DNA of 64,000 nt from Aphelidium insulamus (Eukaryota; Aphelidiomycota; Aphelidea; Aphelidiaceae): contig JAZDSV010000012.1 in NCBI GenBank assembly GCA_036784855.1, positions 62,001 through 126,000 of the forward strand, in the 5' to 3' direction. How positions within the stretch are numbered: position 1 is the stretch's first letter; each line of letters opens with the position of its first letter. A program made the translations under genes and the position numbers. Under the pieces are notes generated by a model. That model had not been told where the DNA came from. It worked only from the letters and a program-made list of their open reading frames with translations, and did no database searches. Of this stretch, positions 4,717 through 38,920 are shown piece after piece.

Positions 4717-7700
4717 TCAAGGCTGCGGCCGCTTTTGTGCTGGGGAGGAGAGCGGTTGCATTCGGTACTCTGACTGCGAGTTTGAGTGGCGGCGGTTGTC
4801 TGTGCCGCTGTTCTCCTCCGCGCTGAACATCATCATGCTTCCTTCATCGGTGTCGCCAAACAGCGACGAGTTGCGGCTGGGTATTCGCGGTGGGGTGCGG
4901 TGGTTGGACGATCTGATGCTGCGCGGTGCCGATGTTGGCTGCTGCTGTCGTGCCCCAGCTTCTGGCTCTGCACGCGGAGACATGGGAACTGCCGGCAGCG
5001 CGCCCGAGAACACCGATGCATCACTGCCGGTATTTGCCGGCGCGGCTAGCTTGTACGCGGTTGAGCCATCATGTCGCCGAGCACCACCCCCATCACGAGT
5101 GTGCTTGCCTGCGGTCTTGGCCAGAGGAGTGGCGGGTCGCCGTCTGGAGTAGGATGCTTTGGTGTCGTACTCGCGTTCCACGTACACCACGCGCTGATCG
5201 TCGGGACCGTCATCTTCCTCGTCATCCTCGTCGTCTTCGTCGCCGTCGTCGGCCTCGTCCGCGGTGTCGCCGCCACCAGCCTCCACATCGTCATAGTCAG
5301 CCGCACCGGTACTAACGCCGGCGCCTGCCCCACCGACATGGCCACCAACGATGCCTCCGGCAGAAACTTTGGGGCTGGACCTGCCCACGATCTGGAACGG
5401 GAGCGGGATCTCCTTGACGGCGCGGAACATGCCGCAATTGTTCAGGTGCTCATTTTCGAGACGGAAAAAATTCCACTGGAAGCGCCGCAGCATCTCCATC
5501 ACCGCCAGCACATACACCAGCTCGCTGCGGTTCAGCGCGCCCCACGACCCCACCGACAGCTGAAACACCCATGCCAGTCGCAGCACCAGGTTTGACGCGA
5601 ACGCCCAGTAGTAAACCCAGTGCCACTCGTAGATCAATTCGTTGCGCAGAAACTTGTTTGTACTGCCCGGCTGCAGGAAGCCCCAGTCCATGTACACGTC
5701 CCAGGCGTACGTATAGCACGTGGTGGCCAGCGACACCAATATCCACGCAAACCTCGCCCCGTCGCTGCCCGTGATGTTTTGCACGGCCGACAGCCACACC
5801 ACAGACATGCTGAATGAGTACTTGCCGGCGTTGACCAGATGCGGGAACACGAGTTCAGTGTCGCGGTAGCGGCGAATACACTGCGCAAACCGCCACCACG
5901 CCGGCAGCATTGCGAACACGGGGGTCAGCCACGACGAGCTGAGCGAGCATCGGCTCTCTAAAATCATATTTAACCATGGTATAATTGATCTAAAATAAAA
6001 ATTACGCACCGGCATCCTCAAAGTTGACGGCATATGAGCAGGAAAACAGTTGCAGTGTGCCGATGGAGTAAACCAGCGAATTGAGCTCATCGGCAACAAA
6101 AAAGTCTCGGAACTCCACGTGGTAGTAGGGCGTAGTAACAATGCGGCCCTGCGGCACGCATTCAGCGGTCAGATAGCTACAACAAGTGGCACAATGACAC
6201 ACTGCTGTACCAGTGTGGAGACGAACCACCGCCGAGAAGACTGGTAAAAGAAGGGAAATGGCTGAAAGAGCATGCACAGCACGGCCAGAAGTAGCAGCAG
6301 CGGCATATAAATGGGCGCAATTCCGAAAACGGTAGACACGCCGGCAAACGTGGCATACATGGCATAGCTGAGAAGTAGCAGCAACAGGCCGCCAAATTCT
6401 GCGAACTGATGGTAGTCTAAATTGTCGCGGGGGTCAAACTCGAACACAAAACGGTAATTGATGTTCCCGCGCGACCAGAAGAGCAAATTCACCGCAAATA
6501 ACAAGGTGAATAATATCGGTATGCTGAAACCGGCGTAAATTTGTACAATAGACTTGTAGTTTGGGAATTGGAGACGAAATTCCGGCTGTGCCACTTTATA
6601 TCCATTAGTCAGTCTTGACAATACAATGCACATTCACTACAACTTGCATAGCTCAAAGGTACCAACAAGCACTGGGAGCGAAAGCCCAATGTAGAGTCCC
6701 AGTCGCCACGAAGTGTTGTGGTGCGTCTGATGCCGCAAATCGGGCATTCGCAGCTTGCGCATCCCATCCTGTCGTCTGCCATTCGCAAAGTGTGCAATGA
6801 ACAATTCCTGTGTGTGATGAGCTCCACGACTCCAGCAAATCACCTAAAAGTGATACCTCGGTGTCGCGCAACAAGTGATCGACTTTTTTCGACACCTGAA
6901 AGGGAGCTCGGTCCACGATGCCAGTAAAGAGGTCACTGCTTCGCCAGCCGGCTGTTTTATCAAACTTTTTCAGTATTTTTACAAATCCAGTGTAATTCAA
7001 AATCTTAAAATTCTTGACCAGCTCCAGGCTGCGATAATATTCTGACACGGCAAACTCCAATTTGCCGCGGGCGTTCTTGCCCTTTTGCCGGTACTCAGTG
7101 GTGTCTGGCTCAGATGAGCTGCGATCCCCATTTGGGCGTACGAGAGAATTTTCACTCTCGGGTCGGCGAATTTTGCTGATCGCTTGTCCCAGGCGCTGAA
7201 ACTCCATGCGGGCAAAGTTGGCTGGATTCGACGCCTGGTCACGTCGATTGCCTTTCTGCAAGCATATTAATTGACAGTCACATGCGCGTTCATATACTTG
7301 CGCCCTTTTTCCGTTTCCGTTCCCGCTCCATGATCTCTATCTGCGACCGCAGCTTGTCCCACTTTTCAGTGGCCTCCTTTTCCTTCTCTGCACAACTGTT
7401 TGCCACCGATGAGCAATTAAGATACATTTATCTCACCTCTGTAGAAGGAATCAATTTTGGTCAATTCACTGTACAACAGGTCGAAAAACTTTTGCTCCTC
7501 CGCCGATCGGTTACGCAAAATTTCATCCAGCTCTGCCACCAAATCGCCGCCCTTATCTGCCGACATAACATGAACTAAATACTTTGTGGAAAAAGCATTA
7601 ATGGTCCCAGATATTGAATGGATAATATATGATAGACATACACAACACGAGTAAACATACCAGTTGAGTAGAACTGAGGAGAACGCGACCTGGTCGGAGT

Positions 7701-16686: not shown

Positions 16687-18283
16687 ATGGCCACGTCCGC
16701 TGTGTTGTCAAGCACGTCTTTGTCGATGGCGGCGGCGACGGCAACCACGACAATTTCTGCGCCAACAATGCTGCTGCTGAGAGTGGTGGCCGGGGCGGTG
16801 CTGGCGCTGCTCCTACTCACGGTCATGGTGTCGGAGCGGTGGCCGCTCGTGCTGGACCATTGCCGGCCGCTGCTGCTGCTGACCGCGTTGCTCTGGCTGT
16901 GGAGGGCGGCCAGGCGCTTTCTGCACAATGCCCGTGTGCCGCTGGATGCTGCGTGCAGCACGGACGGCGGCGGTGACAGGGCTGTGGCTGCTGTGGCTGG
17001 TGGTGGCGGTGGCGGGGAGGAGTTGCAGTTGTTGCCGGCCGTGGCTACTTCGCCGTCAAGTGGCACAGCAGCCGCGGGACACTTGCCCGAAGACTGCCTG
17101 GCAATTCCGCGCAGCATGGCCATGGCAATGTCTCTGTACACCGTGGCCGTGGTGCTTTTGGCAGACCTGGTGCTGCGGTGGCGGAGACCTGCTGGCAGTG
17201 TCAGGTTCACGGCGGACTTTGTGTTGGGGGCCATACTGTCACCGCTGTCGCTGCTGCTGCTGGCATTCGTGGCTGTGCTGCCGCTTCATCGCGCGTGGCA
17301 TCGACAGCGGTTCCGCTTTCTGCGCGCCATGCGGCGTGTGGTGTTTGGCGGCTGGTCGGTGGAGACGGCGTTCGTGGACGTGCTGCTGGCCGACATTCTG
17401 ACCACGTTCTCGCGGGTGTTTGGCGACGTGTACACTGCCGGCTGCACGGTCATGTTCTCCAAGAGTAGCCAGGACCTGCTGTCGGGTGCCGAGCGCTCTC
17501 ATTGCCGGCACAGCTCCCTGCACGCCGTGGCAATGCTGTCAGTGTAGATATTGTTCCATGTCCCACTGTACCGCTGACACCCCCACCCAGCTTGCCGTAC
17601 ATGTGGCGGTTCAGGCAGTGCGTGGCGGACTTTTCGGCAAGTGGAGGTCGCAACACCGCGCAACTGTTCAATGCCCTAAAGTATATGACCGCGGTCCCAG
17701 TGCTGCTGCTGGCGGTGGCGCTGCAACCGTCGAAGCACAATTGGTTGGAACATTCCTTGTCCTGGCTGCCGACTGCATGGCAAGTACAAGTTATAAGTAT
17801 GCATCAATATCAATAATTACTAGGATTGTCATGGCCACACTGAACTCTGCGTACTCGTTGGTGTGGGACGTGGTGTTTGACTGGGATTTGGGGCACTGGC
17901 GGCGGACACGGTACCCGCTACTCCGTGAACATATTACTCTCCGGTTGCATCATTTTTGGCGCGCCGCCGCAAGCAGCTCGAAAGCGGATGTTGATGTCGA
18001 TGCTGGAAGTGGCGCGCGGCTGGACGGTGGTGGAGGTGGCACTAGCGGTGGTGGCGGCAATGGCCAACCGGCATTCTACTACGCCATCCTCCTGTTCAAC
18101 TGTCTGGCCCGTTTTTCTTGGGCGCTGCGCCTGTATGCGGCTGCACGGTGGCGCCACCCGCTAGACTCGGCCGTGGGTGCATTTCTGCTGCTGGCAGTGG
18201 AACTGCTGCGTCGCTGGTTGTGGTTGTTGGTGCGTGTGGAGCGGCAGTGGCTGTACTTGAAGTCCTATTCTGTCAAAGAGTAA
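16687..18283 (+). CDS. ERD1: EXS-domain membrane protein, ERD1-like
   Basis: Multi-pass protein related to yeast Erd1, which exports phosphate from the Golgi and supports glycosyltransferase and ER-protein retention. Exons 16687-17537, 17591-17779 and 17824-18283 give 499 residues. EXS landmarks are LADILTTFSRVFGDVY, LPYMWRFRQCVADF, NALKYMTAVPV, AYSLVWDVVFDWDLG and, near the end, LLRRWLWLLVRVERQW; there is no SPX domain. The second intron is GC-AG (ATG|GCAAGT, 44 nt). It is the only join that restores the conserved Trp-Ile-Val at TAWIVMATL, where XPR1 also has WIV. A longer start at 16591 would read antisense through GEP4 and is disfavoured. This is the second EXS gene in the window, beside the SPX-EXS exporter. 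Confidence 0.87.
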
Positions 18284-19003
18284 TTGTTCTGTTGTTGTGA
18301 CGTGAGATGGATAATTTTTTATACGTACTGTAAGATATGTGACTACTTGGATATGTGGGTTTTCAAGAAACCGTTGAGGTGACAATTCCACCGTTGCACT
18401 TCTGCCATACTAGCTAGTCCTAGTATGTCAGAAGTGTGTTTGTCATCTAAGCTTAGCTGAGCTTAGATGACAAACACACTTCTGACATACTCCAGGAACA
18501 TACTTCTCACTGATCTCCGAGCTTAGATGACAAACATACTTCTGACGACTACAGGAACAACTAAACACTGATCTCCGAAATGCTCCGCCGCATCATTAAA
18601 TCACGGTATTATGGAGCAAACTGCTGGCGCTCACCGGCACGAGTCAGGAAGGGCAGAAGTAGTGTATGTCCCACCTCGGCATTTTGGCGGTCTCTTGGAA
18701 CCGGGCTGTCGAAAAGATATCTGCGATTACGCGGCAAGGCATTTCCCGCCACTGGAGGGTTTTCTCGGGATGCGACGTCGCAGTATTGTAAATAGAGTCG
18801 GCATTAACTGTCAGCTTAGCTAGTGCGACAAGCAAATCTGAATTACCCAATAATAATCATTAGCCGTACAAACTACTAGGTAGACGAGGCTAATCGAGAG
18901 ACGATATGTTCTATCTCGTCCTGTCCTGATTCTCCTCTCGGCTCGGTGCCCGCCGTACCATGCACCCACTAAAATAAGTATGTTATTAGAGTCTAATAGC
19001 ATA

Positions 19004-19036
<33 letters not shown>

Positions 19037-19126
19037 GCCATATTACATAGAATATACGCCATACGTATTTAAATAACGCGACGCGACAATCACGCCAAGG
19101 CGAACAATCCTCTCCAACTTGCAACA
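18284..19126. other. Intergenic region with inverted-repeat cluster and (AT)n
   Basis: No convincing gene; the short open frames at 18580-18823 have no supporting features. It contains the inverted-repeat cluster annotated separately, a near-perfect 17-bp inverted repeat at about 18975-19010 (ATAAGTATG ... GCATACTTAT) and an (AT)n run at about 19008-19035. The promoter of the next gene must lie at the right end. Confidence 0.7.
18397..18546. repeat. Cluster of a ~30-nt unit in both orientations forming a perfect 32-bp-arm hairpin
   Basis: Arms 18422-18453 and 18460-18491 are perfectly complementary over 32 bp with a 6-nt loop (TAGCTG). The unit core is GCTTAGATGACAAACACACT. A shorter inverted copy at 18397-18413 pairs with the start of the left arm (17 bp, one mismatch, 6-nt spacer CTAGTC). 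A further direct copy with one or two changes lies at about 18520-18546, embedded in a repeated flank ending CTGATCTCCGA. It could be a small non-autonomous transposon remnant, a hairpin RNA locus or a terminator-like structure for the ERD1-like gene. Confidence 0.85.
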
Positions 19127-20253
19127 ATGCCGCAGGCGGCCGTTGTGAGGCTTCCGTCCGGCTCGTCGGCTCCTCCGCCCAGCACGCCTCGGTCTCCTAT
19201 GCAGTGCCAGTTGGTGGAACCCGTGACCGCGCACGCAGGCAGTAATGCCACCGCCCGTCTGGAGCAGGCGATCGCGCGCACACCGCTGCTGGGCCGGGTT
19301 GTGGCGCGTTTTGCCGCCTGTCGTAGTCGGCCCGCGCCCGAGATGATGCCGTTGAAGCTGCAGTTTGGTCACTTGACTCCCGAGTTCATTGACTCGGTGT
19401 GTGTGACGCGCGACAAGGACGGCTTGTTGCGCACCGTGTACTGGCGCCTGTGCTACGCCGCAAACGTTGTGATGGCGCTCTGGTTCGTGTGGGGCTTCAT
19501 CTCCGATTTTTGGGTGCTGCTGCTGCTTGTGTGGCGACAACACTTTGAACTGGCCGGCCCGTATTTTGGCATGGTTGCCGTGAGTTTAATGTTGCTGATG
19601 GCGGACGTGTTGCGCACCAGGGATCTGGTCAGGCATGGCAGCGTGTGCGACGCTTTTACATGCCGTATCGCCTACAACTACTACATTATGCAGCGGAGCT
19701 GGCGAGGGGCAAACAAGCAGAGTGTGACGGCGACGGAAAATAATATTACTTCAAGTCATACCTGCCGCGACGGCTACCGCAACTATTGTCTGCTCACTGC
19801 GGTGTGGCAGACGCGGCAGTGGCGGCAAAAGCTTGCTTTCTTTGTGTACTTTACTCTGCGCGGCGGGCTGCGTCTACTCCTCTGCGATCTGTCGCGATTT
19901 GTATTGAATGTGCTGGCACTTTTGTTTCTGGTGAGCGCCGTGTCGCCACTCAAGATTTTGATCTTGTACTTGAACGTGGTGGTGCTGGGATTGTTTTTGC
20001 TGGAGTTGTCGTTTGCCTTGGTTTGTTCGCTGTGGACACGGTGCTATGTCCGGGGGAGTTTGGCAGAGTATTGCGCGCACGTCATGAACGAAAAGTATGT
20101 CTGTTTTTTTTCCTTATTGCCGTCAAATTAAATGATTTCCACAGCTTGGTACTGATGCTGATGCGGCACTGTAGCGATCCCGCAGAGTTGAAGGAGTTGC
20201 AGAAGCAGTATCAGCAGTACTCGGTCGTTGTGCCGGCTCCAGTTGCTGTTTGA
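19127..20253 (+). CDS. Unrecognised multi-pass membrane protein
   Basis: Exons 19127-20094 and 20145-20253 (50-nt intron, donor GTATGT) give 358 residues. After a Pro/Ser-rich N-terminus, at least four long hydrophobic stretches appear at about residues 112-140, 147-162, 250-285 and 288-315. The C-terminus is hydrophilic and Gln-rich. The region MPLKLQFGHLTPEF before the first span is the most distinctive. I do not recognise the family. It follows the two EXS-type genes in the area but shares no motif with them. Confidence 0.7.
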
Positions 20254-30600: not shown

Positions 30601-33083
30601 AAGTACGATAGTGACCGCGCAGTGCTATGCTTGGCAGCGCTAGCCGCGATGAGATCATCAACCTCTGTAATAGGTGGCGATTCTGTGATTTCCGTGACTG
30701 GGAGGTCACCCTGGAAGTCGCTCTGATCGTTGTTGGAACGATTTTCTGTGGATAAAACACCAATGGTTGGCACGGCACTATCTGTCGGCATTTCGGGAAT
30801 TATCATGACTTTTTCTGCACTCTGTAATGCGCGATCTTCGACAAGCTTTAGCTTTTCTGATATAGCCAGCAAGTCATATACGATGTCTTGGAATATGTAG
30901 AGTGGTGTTGTCTTGTTGATGTCGGAAGCGATCCCAGTGCTTTATGGTTAGCAAATATTGTTCTACAAAAAAATCACATACCACACGACAATGTCCCGAA
31001 CGGTAGCCTGGTCCTTGAGGTATGCATAAAATGTGGAGAGTCCTGCGCCGGCATCTCCTTCCACAACAAGGATAGACTGCTCACCGTCGATGTAGTGATC
31101 TAGAGCTTCTTGGAACTTGGCCTTCTCGTAGGACCTGCCAATCACCTGATCCTTCCGTTTGATCGTCGGGTGATCTGCGGACGTGGGGTCCAATTTGGTT
31201 TCGCTGCCGGTGCGTCGCATGCGCTCCTTGTTATTCCCAGTGACCTTGTGCACTGATATGGGTTTTGATTTGCCTTTGACCGTGACTTGCACCGCCTTGT
31301 CATAGCGTATCCCCCGGTGAGACAAAATGTATGTCCGGTCGTCGCACACCGTGGATCGCTTGGCAATATCGAGTAGCATGAGTCGCGCGGCCATATTGAT
31401 GGAGTCTCCAAACTGCAATGAGCTATAAGAGAGAGGTATATATACAAGTACTTGATGTACATACCAGCGCATACTCCGTCCTGTTCTGAACTCCGATGCC
31501 TCCTATGGCCACGGTGCCGGTGGTGACCCCGATGGAAAAGTGCTGGAATGACGCCTCAAACTCTTTGGCGATTTCCATGGCAGTCTTGACGCCATATCCG
31601 GCGTCATCTTCGTGCGCTAGAGGCGGCAACCCAAAGAACACCAGCACCGTGGTTCCCTTGTCGTCCACGTGAAACTGGCGCAAACTTCCCTCGTACTTTG
31701 TGACGGCGCGCTGTACGGTTTCAATGGCCGACTGAGTCTTCTCCAGCTCGTGCACCGATGTGAACTTCAAATCGCCAATGCGAATAAAGACCGTGGTGAG
31801 CTGGCGTAGTTCATTCAGCGCCATCAAGTTGTCGAAACCGCTGACAAGCTTGTTGATCACGGCGTGGTTGATGTACTTTTTATAGAGCGAGATGCGCACG
31901 CCGAAGGGAATGTGGCCGGCCACGGGGCTCATGGCCTTGACGGGCCAGGTGACGCGCCGGCCAGACAACTCGGACGCCTCCAGTATCGCGTACTCTTTAT
32001 CGATCTTGAGTATCTGCAGTGTGGACACGGCTGCCACACGATTCAGCAGGTCCCACGCGGTGGTTGATATGCCGAGTTGTGCTGCGAAGACACAGAGACA
32101 GTCACGTCAGTCAGTGTCAGTGCAGCCGTGCGAAGATTACGTACCTGGTTTGGCGCGGTCCAACACCAACTCCAGCTGGTTGACGGCCGGACCAGCGAGA
32201 AAGTGTTCCCAGCGGTCATCGTCGCCAAACACGTGCACGTCAAACATCTGGCCGGCGCCGACGCCCAGGTGAATGTTCAGGTGCTTGACGGAGCAGTTCT
32301 GGATTTCCACGGCGAAGCGGCCAAGTTTCTGCAGCAGCTCCACGCAGCATGTGGCCGCACGCAGCACCACCTCGCCGTGGGTGCACTTCAAACACTCGCA
32401 CGGCTCCCACGGGCTCACCTCCCATACGCAGTGAAGCCTCTGTCGCCGCTCCAGCTCCACCGGCTCACAGTCACACTTCCAGTAGGCCACCACGGCGTCC
32501 CCAGCAAACTTGACAATGTCTCCATTGTGCCGCATGATGATGTTGACGATCTACGAGCGCGCGTCTGTGTGAGACAGGTGTGGCTGCACAGGTGTCACGG
32601 AGGCCCACATACACTGTCCAGATAGCGCTTCATGGTGCGCGACAGGATCTCGGTGCCGGTGTTGCCGCGCTCGGCCAGCAGCGCCGTCAGCTTGGAGTAG
32701 CCGCTCACGTCGGCCATGACCACGGCCGCGAACGAGGTGATGGCCTCTGGCTTGAACACGGGCACCTTCCAGTCGTGGCGCGCGGCAACTACGGCCAGAT
32801 CCACGCCGGTCTGACGGCTCTCGGCCTCGATGTCGGCGGCGTTGGCCTCCAGGAGCCGCGAGTCGACAAATTCTTGCACGTGGTTGCTGATGAATGAGGG
32901 GATGATCTCGGCGAACTGGCGGTTCAGCGAGCCGGTGGAGGGCGGCAGGTCGCGCTGGAACAGTCTACGCGCGGACACCCTGAATCCGCTCGCGGGTCCC
33001 GGCGGTGACGAGGACACGCTGTTGCCAACGGCAGCCGTAGTAGCAGCCACGCCACCGCTCGACTGCATCAGCTTTGCATCCAT
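27603..33083 (-). CDS. ADCY10: Soluble adenylyl cyclase (class III, bicarbonate-type)
   Basis: Makes cAMP, typically in response to bicarbonate, and drives flagellar beating in animals. Minus exons 33083-32613, 32550-32145, 32081-31465, 31412-30982 and 30939-27603; 1753 residues. Cyclase domain C1 holds both metal Asp motifs (VVMADVSGYSKL and IVKFAGDAVVAYW). C2 holds TTVFIRIGDL, GVTTGTVAIGG and FGDSINMAARL. Then comes a STAND-like ATPase segment, with QVIGRSYE and VVEGDAGAGLSTFYAYL. Here the Walker A lysine is Leu (GAGLST rather than GxGKST), though a Walker B-like MLVVEEAQWSD follows. About 850 residues of helical repeat-like sequence complete it. It converges with the EFHC gene (80 bp) and is divergent from the fibro-slime receptor (351 bp). 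Confidence 0.93.
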
Positions 33084-33434
33084 GTGCCTATGGGTCTAGG
33101 TGTCGCGGTGGGTGTCTATGTTATGAATGTGTGTGCCGACGGGCAGCAATCTGGCAATCTTCGCTGCCAAGCTGCCATGGCAACCGGCATGGAGGTCCTT
33201 GGCCTGTCTGCTAGTGCCTGCGGGTGCCTGCCGCCCGGCTCACACATGCTAGGGTAATAGAGAGGCATGTGCAAATGCCCACTCGACGAGGACTACGGGC
33301 CGTAAGATATTCCTGGCGCTCGATCGCCAGTTTTAGGCCGCGATCTCCTTACTTCGCCTGCCCCCTCCCCAGCAACACCCACAGCTCAAAGACAAACACA
33401 GCTCCATTCTCCGCGAACTACACGTACCGACCGA
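33084..33434. promoter_or_regulatory. Divergent intergenic region between adenylyl cyclase and receptor genes
   Basis: 351 bp between the two start codons. No open frame of note, tRNA or repeat. A pyrimidine-rich stretch (33335-33370) precedes the receptor start. It presumably carries promoters for both genes; no specific motif can be named. Confidence 0.45.
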
Positions 33435-33975
33435 ATGTCACGCTTGCTGCAGGTGCTCACGGTTCTGGCAAGCACTGCTACAGTGTCGATGGCCGCACTT
33501 CCGCCCTCCATCACACTGCAGGGACTGGCACGTGACTTCAGGTACCCTTGGCCAATACATAGCTCTAATGCCCACACTTAAGTCACGTGTAGCGCGTCTC
33601 ACGTCAACTTTGAGCCGCCGGTCGAGTTTTGCCGAGAGCAAATAGGCTTGCTGGCACCGCGTTTGGCCAGTAGCGACGGTCGGCCAGTGTTCACACCGCC
33701 CGAACTACGCGCCGCGGACGCGCTCACAATCTACCCGTACTGCAATGATACTGCGCGTCAGACTCCGTACGCACTATCCATGTTTGGCCAGGCGTATTTT
33801 GACGAGATGTATCAAGACGTGCCCGGGGTCAACATCGCCATCCCCATCGAGATCGTGCTGGACCTCGTGGACCCCGTGCTGGGCCTGTACGAATACCAGT
33901 CGGACTCGTTCTTTCCCATCAACGGCCAAGGCTACCAGCGTGAGGTGTGTGCCTGTTAATTGATTAAAATATCGG

Positions 33976-34032
<57 letters not shown>

Positions 34033-35396
34033 GAGCTTGTTTCGTCCAACTCTTACGCCTTGCGTTCTTTCCCTTTTCTACTTGCTACTGGTTGCATTAT
34101 TTCTTATAGCGTTCATGTAGCTGATGGACCCGGCATCAACATCGGGCAAGGATCGCGTGCTAAACTACTGGTTCACCACCGAGTTCCGTGTGCAGTTCTT
34201 TTACCGCGCCGGCCAACAGTTCCAGTTCACGGGTGACGACGACCTGTGGGTTTTCATCGACGGCCGGGCTACAGCGTGCGATCTGGGTTCTATACACGCA
34301 GCGCGCTCCTGCAACGTGCAGCTGGACTCTCTGGGTCTACTGCAGAACGCCTCGTACGAGATGGCCATATTCCACGCAGAGCGCCACTATCGCGGCAGTA
34401 CATTCCACATCACCACATCGATAGTGCCGGAGAACCGCGCGCCTCAAGTAGGCACGTTCAATGTGCTCACCACCGAGAATACGGATATCACATTCGCTCT
34501 CCAAGGGTTCGACCCCGACTACAACCCGCGGCTGCAGTTCATGCTGCTGTCCATGCCTGCACACGGTTCCGTCAACCAGCCACTGAACACATGGTTTCCC
34601 GCAGAGACCGCTCTCACATACACCCCTGATCAGTATTTTGGCGGCAATGATACCATCACATACATCATGACGGACCGCCAGGCCAATTCTACGGTCGGCA
34701 CTGTAAACATCCTGGTAAACCGGCTGCTGCGACCACCAGTCGCACAAAACACAACATGCACCATGCGACAGGGGGATGTAGCAGACATTGCACTCAGTGC
34801 CATGGACCCGGACACGGTTCCACAGGACTTGCAGTTCACCATCATCTCCACACCGCAGCTGGGCTACGCGGACATGGCTATCGTCGGCAATAACAACAAC
34901 AACAACAACCAAAAGAGTAATAACAACATGCTGCACTACAAGGCGGTGTCGCCGGGTGTCGAGATCATTCAGTGGCAGGTTAGCGATGGGACGTCGCGCG
35001 TTTACGCCTCGCTGGTCATTACGATAGGTGCGCACGGTGGTAAAGCTGGTTTTTCTACTTGAACTGATATCTCTCGCTCACTAGATCCACCGCTCACTGC
35101 CGATGTGCCGGTGTTGAACTCAAGTGAAGTAGCCGGGCTGGTGGTTGGCAGCGTTGCCCTGTTTGCCATTGTCGCTCTGGTGTTGGTGTACTTTGCATAC
35201 TACTATATTGCGGCGTCAAAGTTTGAGAGCACGGTAAGTGAAGGTTTACTCGTAATTGGTTGTCTTTATATTGATGTAGTGGCGGAAAGAGTTTTACGCC
35301 GCCAACGTCATGTCAAACCCGCTGTATAAGGGGACTTGCACCGAGAGCTTTAATCCGCTCTACTCGCAGCCTGACGCACATTCCTCTCTGCCATGA
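33435..35396 (+). CDS. Type I membrane receptor: PA14/fibro-slime ectodomain, cadherin-like repeats, integrin-beta-like tail
   Basis: Exons 33435-33541, 33593-33944, 34121-35027, 35085-35233 and 35280-35396 give 543 residues. A signal peptide (MSRLLQVLTVLASTATVSMA) is followed by a fibro-slime/PA14 domain: GLARDFSASHVNFEP, then DSFFPINGQGYQ, then YWFTTEFRVQFFYRAGQQF and FTGDDDLWVFIDG. Two Ig/cadherin-like modules follow (ALQGFDPDYNPRLQF...TYTPDQYFGGNDTITY, then a second ending WQVSDGTSRVY). One membrane span, with GLVVG (a GxxxG) at its start, leads to a short tail with KFE, a Trp and NPLYKGTCTESFNPLY. The two NPxY motifs are eight residues apart, as in animal integrin beta tails. Dictyostelium Sib adhesion proteins have a comparable GxxxG plus NPxY layout. 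Function as an adhesion receptor is inference. Intron 2 holds a (CTGT)n microsatellite. Confidence 0.85.
33974..34032. repeat. (CTGT)n microsatellite in receptor intron 2
   Basis: About 14 uninterrupted TGTC units within the 176-nt second intron of the receptor gene. This explains why that intron is three times longer than its neighbours. Confidence 0.95.
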
Positions 35397-35490: not shown

Positions 35491-36093
35491 CTACTTGCGG
35501 AATCGCATCTTCACATCCAGCAGGGTGTTCATGTTCTTCTCGTCGAAACGCGCTTGTTTCCCCGCCGCCTTCTCCACCTTGTCCAGACGCTCCTGCGCGT
35601 CCATTGTCCACCAGCCGATCTCGCTGTTCTTGGTGGGCGGGAACGTGTACTTGTCACGCGGCCCTCCCAGTGCCTTTTGCAGCCTGTTGATGTTATGTGT
35701 GAGCAGGTAGAAGCTCTTCATCTCGGCGTCCGTTAGGATGGTGTCTTCGGGGAGGCGACTGGTGATCGGTGCCAGGTCTGCCACTAAGCGCTCGCTCCGG
35801 GTGGGCAGATTGGATGCAGCCGCACCAGCCGTGCCCACTGCTGGCAAGTGATTTGCGGCTGTCGAGGACGTGTTCTGCTTTTTCTCCGCGTCCTGTGAAT
35901 ACAGTGGTGGTCAGTGTGGTGTTGACATGTACTGTACTGTACACTGTGTGCTAACCAGTTCGTTGTACGCAGCCATCATGAATCCCCACTTGTTTGGCCA
36001 GTTTAGCTGCCAGTCCAGCTCCGACTTGATCATCTGCCGGCGGATGGCATCGTCGTGCACGCTGTTGACAATCTTGCTCTTTTGTTCACTCAT
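35491..36093 (-). CDS. Small protein with C20orf85/CIMIP1-like N-terminus; candidate axonemal protein
   Basis: Exons (minus) 36093-35956 and 35892-35491 (63-nt intron, donor GTTAGC) give 179 residues. The segment LDWQLNWPNKWGFMMAAYNEL resembles the NWPxxWGF motif of small microtubule-inner proteins of the C20orf85/CIMIP type, and KNSEIGWWT near residue 147 resembles the IGW motif of the same group. That resemblance is from memory and short, so the family call is tentative. The four other flagellar genes within 16 kb make the idea attractive but do not prove it. The rest is helical and charged. Confidence 0.6.
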
Positions 36094-36900: not shown

Positions 36901-38920
36901 CTAAAACGGCAGGATTCCACTGTCAAACTGGCTGGTGACTTCGGGAAACTGCTCAAAGCTACTACCTTGCCCTTGCTGATCACCATTGCCCGCATTCTTT
37001 GTGGATGGCTGTGTAGACGCCGCCGCAAATGTCAGTTCAGACGCCGACGACGGCGGCTGCAGCGACGGGCTGAGCACGGTACCGCCCTGCAGCTGCTGAA
37101 TGAGCAAGTCGGACCGGTTGCCGTCCATTGCTGTCAGTTGCGCGTCGTTCAGCGGCGAGTAGCCGCCGTTACTGCTGCCCGTGGAGAACAGGGACGGCGC
37201 AGAGTTGGGCGCCGTGGCGACCAGTGGAGTATCGGGTGAGTCGTCTCGGCCGCCCTGGTTCAGCGACGCGGACGGCGGCGCCAGATATGATGTGGGCCGC
37301 GAGTTGAGCAGGTAGGCGCTGGGCGACTGGAGCGTCATCGAGTCGGCGCCGAATCCGTTCAGTCTGTTCAGGGTGTGCGCGCTGAGCGGCGGCAGTATGG
37401 TCGACTCGTTCTGCATGGCGGAGGATGAGTTGTAGAGGCGCCCGGCGGCCATGTCCAGACTGAGCGTGCTGAGCTGCGAGTCCCGCTGCGCGTAGAAGCG
37501 CGACGGCGAGTAGGGGTCCTGGAATGCGGCTGCCGACGCCGACTGCAGAGTGTGCACCTTGTACGGGTGTGCGCGCACTGATGTCGGCTGCTTGGCCATG
37601 ATGGGCGACGAGGTGTAGCTGCTGCCGCCGTGCGGGGAGAACACCTCGCTGTCACTGTCGGCATAGTGGCCGGGACTGCGGCCACGGACCACCAGCGACG
37701 AGGACGTGGCGGAGGCGATCTTGACGGAGCGCATGCCTTCCCCCGACTCGTCCGCCACCTCGGCGTACAGGTCCAGCGACACCACGTAGTACTGCTGGGC
37801 GGCGCGGCGCTTGCCATTGTTGGCGGTGGCGCTCTTGAACTGGATGCGCTCAAAGGTCACCACGGACATGGGCGCGCCGATGCCACCTATGGGACCCCCC
37901 TGCACGGTGGGGCTGCTGACCATGAGCTGCGGCAGCTGGGAGTGCAGGACGTTGCCGCCGCACCGCACCGGCAGACAGCACGGCGACAGCGTGGGGCCCT
38001 TGTCGCGCTTACTGGTGTGCTGCACGAGCGGCACGGCTTTTTGTCCCTCGCCGCTGGACGCCGATATGCCCATGGTGTAGCGCACGATGGGCAGGTAGCG
38101 CTCGCCCAGCTGCAGCACGCACGGCACCTCGCCCGACGCGTCATAGTCAATGGGTCCGTGTGGGCCCTGCACAAACGCCGTGAAAGCCCCGCTGGCCTGG
38201 AAGTAGTTGCGACGGTAGCACGCCCAGTCGCTGCCCGCCAGGAAGAAGCCCTTGTCCACGCGGCCGGCCACGTTGAACGCGACACTGGCGGAACTGTCAC
38301 CGGTGAGCACATTCTCGTGCTGCACTGTCGGGTTGAACGCCGGTCCAAAGTCACCGGTGGTGTAGTTGTTTCGGCGGCGCAGCACCGGACTCGCCGCCAC
38401 CTTGTCCGCACCACCCAGCTGGCGCGGCTTAGTGTCAATCTTTAGCCGGCGCTCGTGCAGACCCGACTTTGGCCGGTCCTGCTGCTGCTGCTGCTGCTGA
38501 TTGTCGAGTCCATGCAGCGGCTGCAGCATCTGATACTGCGCCTGTTGCTTTATCTGCTGCTGTTGCTGTGCCATGAGCTGCTGTTGCTGCTGCTGGTACG
38601 CCGACGGCAGCGAGGGCATGGTGTCGTGGAACCTGCATTCAGACAGTTATGAGAATAAGCGCGCACAATTCCTGCGACACCTACCCCGCCTGGGCAAGCA
38701 TGTTCTGCACGCTGCTGGTGCTGCTGTGCGCGTTCACATTGAAGCTGCTGTTGTTGTTGGAGTCGACCAGCGCGTAGAATCCTTTGCCGCCGCCGCCAAC
38801 ACTGCTATTCTGTTGCAGTGGCGACGCCGGCAAGTCCGTGTTGGGCAACAGTGTCACGTAGCGGCCGGCGGCATTGTTTGCGCGCTGCTGCTCCTCGATG
38901 GCGTGCACAATTTGTTCCAT
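36901..38920 (-). CDS. NDT80/PhoG-type transcription factor with polyglutamine tracts
   Basis: DNA-binding regulator of the NDT80/VIB-1/MYRF fold family. Exons (minus) 38920-38685 and 38632-36901 give 655 residues. The NDT80 domain spans about residues 145-350, with GRVDKGFFLAGSDWACYRRN, then TFERIQFKSATANNGKRR, then YYVVSLDLYAEV and SLVVRGRSPGHY. The N-terminus has Asn/Ser-rich stretches and three Gln runs at about residues 85-125; the C-terminus is Ser/Pro/Asn-rich and probably an activation region. No coiled coil or intramolecular chaperone domain like that of animal MYRF is seen, so it resembles the fungal type. Family members govern meiosis, nutrient response or cell differentiation; its role here is unknown. 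Confidence 0.85.

Follow-up and report, generated by a model that had tools for sequence, protein, structure and literature searches.

Receptors that are not integrins and yet carry an integrin-type, talin-binding tail are a kind already known. The links between SibA of Dictyostelium and talin, and between the integrins of Capsaspora and talin, are established in the available portions of PMC12686525, PMC9197732 and PMC6450878. Binding of SibA to talin A requires the membrane-proximal NPxY (PMC9197732), and the integrin tails of Capsaspora recruit human talin via NPXY/F (PMC6450878). In the Dictyostelium proteins SibA-SibE a single, glycine-rich span leads into a tail that bears two NPxY motifs (PMC9197732), and how SibA relates to the integrins and whether convergence acted is a question raised in PMC12686525. 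The available text of the latter also reports that Dictyostelium talin heads have too low an affinity for mammalian integrins to engage them, and binding can therefore not be assumed from likeness.

Judged by its predicted domains, the receptor described here, from the aphelid Aphelidium insulamus, has an integrin-type tail and is not an integrin. It shares with the Sib proteins a single, glycine-rich span and a tandem NPxY tail, a parallel drawn in the preliminary description of this DNA; the likeness is one of layout, and the Sib ectodomain has a VWA domain whereas that of the receptor combines a fibro-slime domain with cadherin-like modules. The gene lies on the plus strand at 33435-35396 of the window (the whole stretch of 64,000 nucleotides analyzed here, about 53% GC). 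In the spliced model five exons, separated by four GT-AG introns of 51, 176, 57 and 46 nt, encode 543 residues and end in a stop codon at 35394-35396; the coordinates, exons and motifs are all as first described (Table 1). Introns this short look usual in the genome, in which gaps between talin matches measure ~44 and ~53 nt. The signal peptide, judged by eye, covers approximately residues 1-21, and an RDF motif runs on from exon 1 into exon 2, matching relatives. A TCTG tetranucleotide repeat occupies window 33975-34035 in intron 2. Elsewhere in the window lie, on the minus strand, a neighboring gene at 30963-33095 that by eye resembles a soluble-type class III adenylyl cyclase (two exon frames scanned have no Pfam match at E 0.001), a small FAM183/SPMIP11-like frame at 35491-35910 that falls just below Pfam cut-offs and is possibly a flagellar microtubule inner protein, and an NDT80/PhoG DNA-binding protein at 36901-38646 (112.7 bits).

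Table 1. Features of the receptor gene (window positions) and of a second receptor gene on contig C98
Feature	Position	Strand	Basis or remark
Exon 1: start codon, signal peptide, start of ectodomain	33435..33541	+	hydrophobic N-terminus; spliced model
Exon 2: N-terminal part of fibro-slime region, residues 36-153	33593..33944	+	model and relatives
Exon 3: fibro-slime domain and two cadherin-like modules	34121..35027	+	model and domain matches
Fibro_Slime (TIGR02148), residues 168-254	34163..34423	+	89.3 bits, cut-off 45
First Ig/cadherin-like module (Big_9), residues 258-350	34433..34711	+	46 bits, over cut-off
Second cadherin-like module (Cadherin_3), residues 358-451	34733..35014	+	31 bits, over cut-off
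Exon 4: linker, span (residues ~469-498, GxxxG), membrane-proximal KFEST	35085..35233	+	model and AF2 helix
Intron, 46 nt, GT-AG	35234..35279	+	retention would cost the tail both NPxY motifs
Exon 5: WRKEFYAANVMS-NPLY-KGTCTESF-NPLY-SQPDAHSSLP and stop	35280..35396	+	model and relatives
First NPLY, residues 518-521, predicted talin F3 site	35316..35327	+	NPL[YF] in 9/9 rows
Second NPLY, residues 530-533	35352..35363	+	NPLY in 9/9 rows
Second receptor gene, contig C98	L019 exons 5816-6199, 6280-6447, 6520-7605; contig ~161816-163605	+	frames and domain matches

The fibro-slime and cadherin-like matches cover most of residues 168-451, and a Cadherin_4 match (31.6 bits) is also over its cut-off. 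The signal peptide, the two Ig/cadherin-like modules and the one span with its GxxxG thus agree with the earlier account, which had further named a fibro-slime/PA14 domain: the fibro-slime part stands, whereas PA14 reaches 16.6 bits, under its cut-off of 24. Neither the I-like/VWA ectodomain of integrin beta (Integrin_beta, PF00362) nor a VWA domain is among the five Pfam families that the whole receptor matches at E up to 1, in line with the original view of an ectodomain that has no integrin-type VWA/I-like domain. AF2 predicts one helix over residues 469-517, from the span through to the first NPLY, which we take to be the geometry of a talin-bound beta tail.

The same head and tail recur in other organisms. 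A search of the protein collection (8000 candidates scored) gave 165 proteins at E up to 0.001, with 120 of them listed, and eight of the ten best relatives (P0001, P0003, P0004, P0005, P0006, P0008, P0009 and P0010) combine both. They include P0001 of Amoeboaphelidium protococcarum, at 49% over the whole length, P0008 of Sorochytrium milnesiophthora, P0009 of Blastocladiella emersonii and P0010 of Catenaria anguillulae, in which the head is shortened; these four are hypothetical proteins for which the sources name no function, and we place them in the same receptor family. Of the other two, P0002 shares head and span and its model departs from the family just before the tail, as if it had read into an intron left unspliced; P0007, which is a eukaryotic transcript, lacks an integrin-type tail. 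Alignment A1 comprises eleven rows; A2 excludes P0002 and P0007, leaving nine (the window protein and eight relatives), and A3 also drops P0010, leaving eight. C206 and C217 of the fibro-slime domain are invariant across A3. An Asn-rich (AAC/AAT) repeat in exon 3 (window 34886-34930) is an insert in the second cadherin-like module and is missing from the other A1 rows.

In a tree of ten rows and two outgroup rows (P0011 and P0013), P0006, P0008, P0009 and P0010 group together in a single clade (100/99); the remaining rows, the window protein included, have no resolved branching. Sorochytrium belongs to Blastocladiomycota and Aphelidium to Aphelidiomycota. Where a lower-ranked relative among the matches listed bears an organism name, it is a fibro-slime protein from a bacterial genome (P0012, P0075, P0077 and P0091, and P0152 from the wider profile search described below). 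Three metagenome fibro-slime proteins, P0011, P0013 and P0046, which we take to be bacterial, share the fibro-slime and Big_9 modules and have no visible integrin-type tail, their ends being possibly incomplete. A search of the collection with the tail alone (106 candidates scored) returned only P0001, neither integrins nor other family members; since known members were missed, this is no proof that the tail is rare. A wider profile search (207 proteins, 120 of them listed, from the 8000 candidates sharing most words) yielded no new full-length member. It can miss members, because P0006, a row of its own query, was not listed, and we therefore make no claim that chytrid or dikaryan relatives are absent.

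The cytoplasmic tail has 45 residues, and across the nine A2 rows it follows the pattern [KR]-F-x3-W-x2-E-[FYW]-x4-[VMLI]-x2-NPL[YF]-x5-E-x2-NPLY. All nine rows have tandem NPx[YF] motifs spaced by eight residues, the integrin-like spacing noted at the outset. The first motif is NPxF in four of them, including the three from Blastocladiomycota, which have NPLF where the window receptor has its first NPLY; such a motif is still compatible with talin, since the Capsaspora tails use NPXY/F (PMC6450878). Other points of likeness in the preliminary description fared less well. KFE and Trp are both present in the window receptor and the Trp is found in 9/9 rows, but the full KFE occurs in two (its Phe in all nine), and 11 residues rather than 4 separate the Trp from the NPxY, placing it at Y-15, not Y-8. 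The Lys after the first Tyr, offered as an integrin-type feature, follows NPL[YF] in 2/9 rows, and the KFE/Lys likeness is mostly peculiar to the window sequence. Mean pairwise identity over the 28 pairs of the eight A3 rows is 0.48 for the tail core and 0.49 for the fibro-slime region. The span (0.36), the Ig modules (0.33-0.34), the linker (0.24) and the final ten residues (0.13) all score lower. Because the tail core thus equals the fibro-slime region in conservation and exceeds these other parts, its motifs appear to be under selection. The chance of NPx[YF]-x8-NPx[YF] in a random tail of 44 residues is ~6e-7 to 4e-6, with conservation left out of account.

By the comparisons that follow, the likeness to integrin beta tails is real and is mainly carried by NPxY-x8-NPxY. 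With the A2 profile of span and tail, integrin beta chains were the first seven of 16 matches listed from 177635 PDB sequences: two b1 (E 7.6e-5 and 8.1e-5), b7 (5.5e-4), b3 (0.041), b2 (0.058), b1D (0.086) and a b7 peptide (0.088), the first non-integrin protein following at 0.25. As membrane spans inflate profile scores, shuffle tests were run on the cytoplasmic parts alone, and of the 20000 shuffles in each test 17729 to 19919 obtained a score. The real score of the family profile was reached by none of the 20000 for b1, b7 and b2 (the last a fragment) and by 20 for b3. In the reverse test with a small profile of four integrins, the nine real scores were reached by 0 (window), 0, 0, 7, 52, 1, 25, 33 and 7 shuffles, five of the nine results thus being modest (7 to 52 of 20000). 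Margins are thin: 17.8 against 16.6 for the best shuffle with b7, and 15.9 against 15.8 with P0001. Animal and holozoan integrin beta chains share with the family NPxY-x8-NPxY, a membrane-proximal Phe, a charged EKE stretch and a single span before the tail. They differ in that the receptor has no Integrin_beta match, and its tail alone scores 13.6 bits against Integrin_b_cyt (PF08725), under the cut-off of 23.4. In the tails of integrin beta 1, 3 and 7 the Trp stands 4 residues before NPxY, whereas 11 intervene in the family, so docking would not be identical to that of integrins in detail. The profile alignment places the family Trp opposite the integrin membrane-proximal Phe and not opposite the integrin Trp, and none of the integrin tails compared has an equivalent of the invariant Glu ahead of the second motif.

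As to how such a tail came to sit beneath this head, the account we lean towards is that it converged on the integrin pattern through selection by talin F3, a domain that is strongly conserved. Integrin-like tails also occur on other heads, in SibA and, reportedly, in an Entamoeba lectin and the Acanthamoeba mannose-binding protein (available text of PMC12686525 and PMC9197732), and a second receptor of A. insulamus has the tandem motif without KF or W. Convergence does require that chance and selection yield the eight-residue spacing each time. A possible but more doubtful account is that domain shuffling brought in the tail of an integrin beta chain, which would imply shared ancestry beyond function. 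Integrin beta chains being the best PDB matches to the span and tail profile, the identical spacing, and the coupling of a weak VWA match to an NPLF-x8-NPTY tail in the second receptor all speak for it; against it, the tail is short, most of the likeness comes down to the paired NPxY motifs, the EKE stretch and the hydrophobicity of the span, and the integrin tails compared differ from the family in where the Trp sits and at the Glu that is invariant between its motifs.

This second receptor gene, on contig C98, came to light as a match of 19.3 bits (cut-off 23.4) in a genome scan with Integrin_b_cyt that scored only two candidates and is evidently insensitive, having missed the window's own tail. 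Its predicted product has a signal peptide, a VWA domain, one span and the tail described above. The VWA match (24.4 bits) is barely above its cut-off of 23.8, VWA_2 (25 bits) is below its 27, and the best PDB matches are to the bacterial fimbrial protein Mfa5 (E 0.022), not to integrins. The Sib layout is closer to this receptor than to that of the window. Its tandem-NPx[YF] tail makes it harder to claim the window gene as the sole talin receptor; the C98 receptor could be the partner of talin instead, and it fits the view that integrin-type tails persist in the lineage. A match on contig C118 (L015; HDRKEYARFQK, 16.9 bits, below cut-off) was set aside by eye as a coincidence at the end of a seemingly many-span protein. 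That apparent protein ends near THDRKEYARFQKRSKLEF, resembling the integrin membrane-proximal HDRREFAKFEKE.

The genome (17.95 Mb in 169 contigs, with genes read exon by exon) encodes both talin and vinculin, so the parts for a chain from receptor through talin and vinculin to actin are present. On contig C108, Talin_middle matches at 87.9 bits and the F0, FERM_M and PTB domains are over cut-off; the talin head, its exon frames joined by hand, scores 426 bits to talin-1 of 6r9t, and two long rod frames follow, the last of which by eye ends like a talin C-terminus. Vinculin lies on contig C97 (123.8 bits). The talin F3 domain is identical to that of talin-1 of 6r9t at 65/96 residues, and 19 of the 25 positions compared are unchanged, including R358, W359, A360, S365, Y377, S379, Q381 and I396, which we take to be beta-tail contacts, with numbering anchored on W359. 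The six that differ (K320E, L325M, K357R, Q374A, G376A and L400V) count against a talin receptor. Talin, whose absence the preliminary description would have held against its proposal, is thus encoded with a well-kept F3 pocket. Its wording that such tails bind talin and kindlin holds for the talin part and goes too far for kindlin: Kindlin_2_N, like Integrin_beta, Integrin_A_Ig_1 and Paxillin, had no match in the genome, and as the control genomes were equally silent we claim absence for none of these, although for the integrins it is likely. A FERM frame on contig C106, with weak matches to moesin, myosin-VII, KRIT1 and merlin, was not called kindlin. The only FG-GAP match was rejected as an integrin alpha chain, being on contig C148, a contig of genes that by eye are intronless and bacterial-looking. 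By eye C148 carries genes of sigma-54 activator and LysR type and is probably a contaminant. When the genome was queried with the tail or with the Fibro_Slime family, the receptor gene alone came up among the best candidates scored. A further point against an adhesion receptor is that in Orpinomyces grown on cellulose talin and vinculin mRNA were lower, and the authors speculated on non-adhesion roles (available text of PMC5042518).

We favor, at a probability of about 0.68, a model in which this family represents talin-linked, type I, single-span adhesion and/or phagocytic receptors that aphelids and Blastocladiomycota use in their amoeboid stages. Two cadherin-like modules would space the fibro-slime head from the membrane, and the head would bind an extracellular ligand, most likely a polysaccharide, whether on the algal host, on the substrate or in the coat of the cell itself; a carbohydrate-rich surface is what the likeness to fibro-slime/PA14-like proteins suggests. 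We envision that the tail docks on talin F3 (PTB) via the first NPL[YF], aided by the membrane-proximal F/W helix, that talin and vinculin connect the receptor to actin, and that the second NPLY may engage a different PTB/FERM protein. The job of an integrin beta chain would then be performed without an alpha chain or I-like domain. The original proposal of a talin-linked adhesion receptor is borne out in its non-integrin ectodomain, integrin-type tail and talin gene, and not in its KFE and Lys details. In the aphelid Paraphelidium the zoospores bear filopodia and the trophont is amoeboid and phagotrophic (available text of PMC6299283), and a receptor of this kind would for that reason be useful for algal attachment, crawling or engulfment.

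The phagotrophy of Paraphelidium (PMC6299283) would also suit a reading that we consider unlikely, in which the protein is an endocytic cargo receptor, its NPxY motifs binding clathrin/sorting PTB adaptors and not talin, and its head taking up carbohydrate. Other FERM/PTB-type frames in the genome, some MyTH4-FERM-like by eye and one of them on C106, are consistent with this. NPxY is, moreover, a general PTB ligand that serves endocytic adaptors too. The classic endocytic motif, however, is FxNPxY with an aromatic residue at Y-5, and none of the nine rows has this aromatic in either motif. To our knowledge endocytosis needs neither the eight-residue integrin spacing nor the invariant membrane-proximal F and W. 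That exon 5 is foreign to the receptor gene, the one separation from the membrane-span exon that the preliminary description had feared, we hold to be highly improbable: intron read-through likewise leaves the tail frame open in this predicted gene, but [KR]F-x3-W-x2-E-[FYW] reads through the exon 4/5 junction in 9/9 A2 rows, and this homology in eight relatives (Amoeboaphelidium, Sorochytrium, Blastocladiella, Catenaria and other contigs) favors the join.

Our literature searches found no paper on a fibro-slime receptor family with an integrin-type tail; integrin paired with early-diverging fungi gave none, aphelid with integrin gave choanozoan phylogeny only, and fibro-slime with integrin gave Fibrobacter only. 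The words "adhesion" and "cadherin" do not occur in PMC8657485, a dual RNA-seq study of Amoeboaphelidium protococcarum. Within the reach of these searches, the receptor family is new in its head, its lineage and its tail layout, and a further family with a different head bears directly on the question of convergence between SibA and the integrins.

More speculatively, and only tentatively, the receptor may be the integrin stand-in of the fungal branch, an ancient talin receptor predating the split of aphelids and Blastocladiomycota that unites a bacterial-type glycan-binding head with an integrin-type tail; together with the C98 receptor, it would make the tail a module that persisted after integrin heterodimers were gone and moved from one ectodomain to another. 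On its predicted features, the receptor makes a good candidate for the outer partner that talin of early fungi has been missing, and one that is testable both in the lineage sister to fungi and in Blastocladiomycota such as Blastocladiella emersonii.
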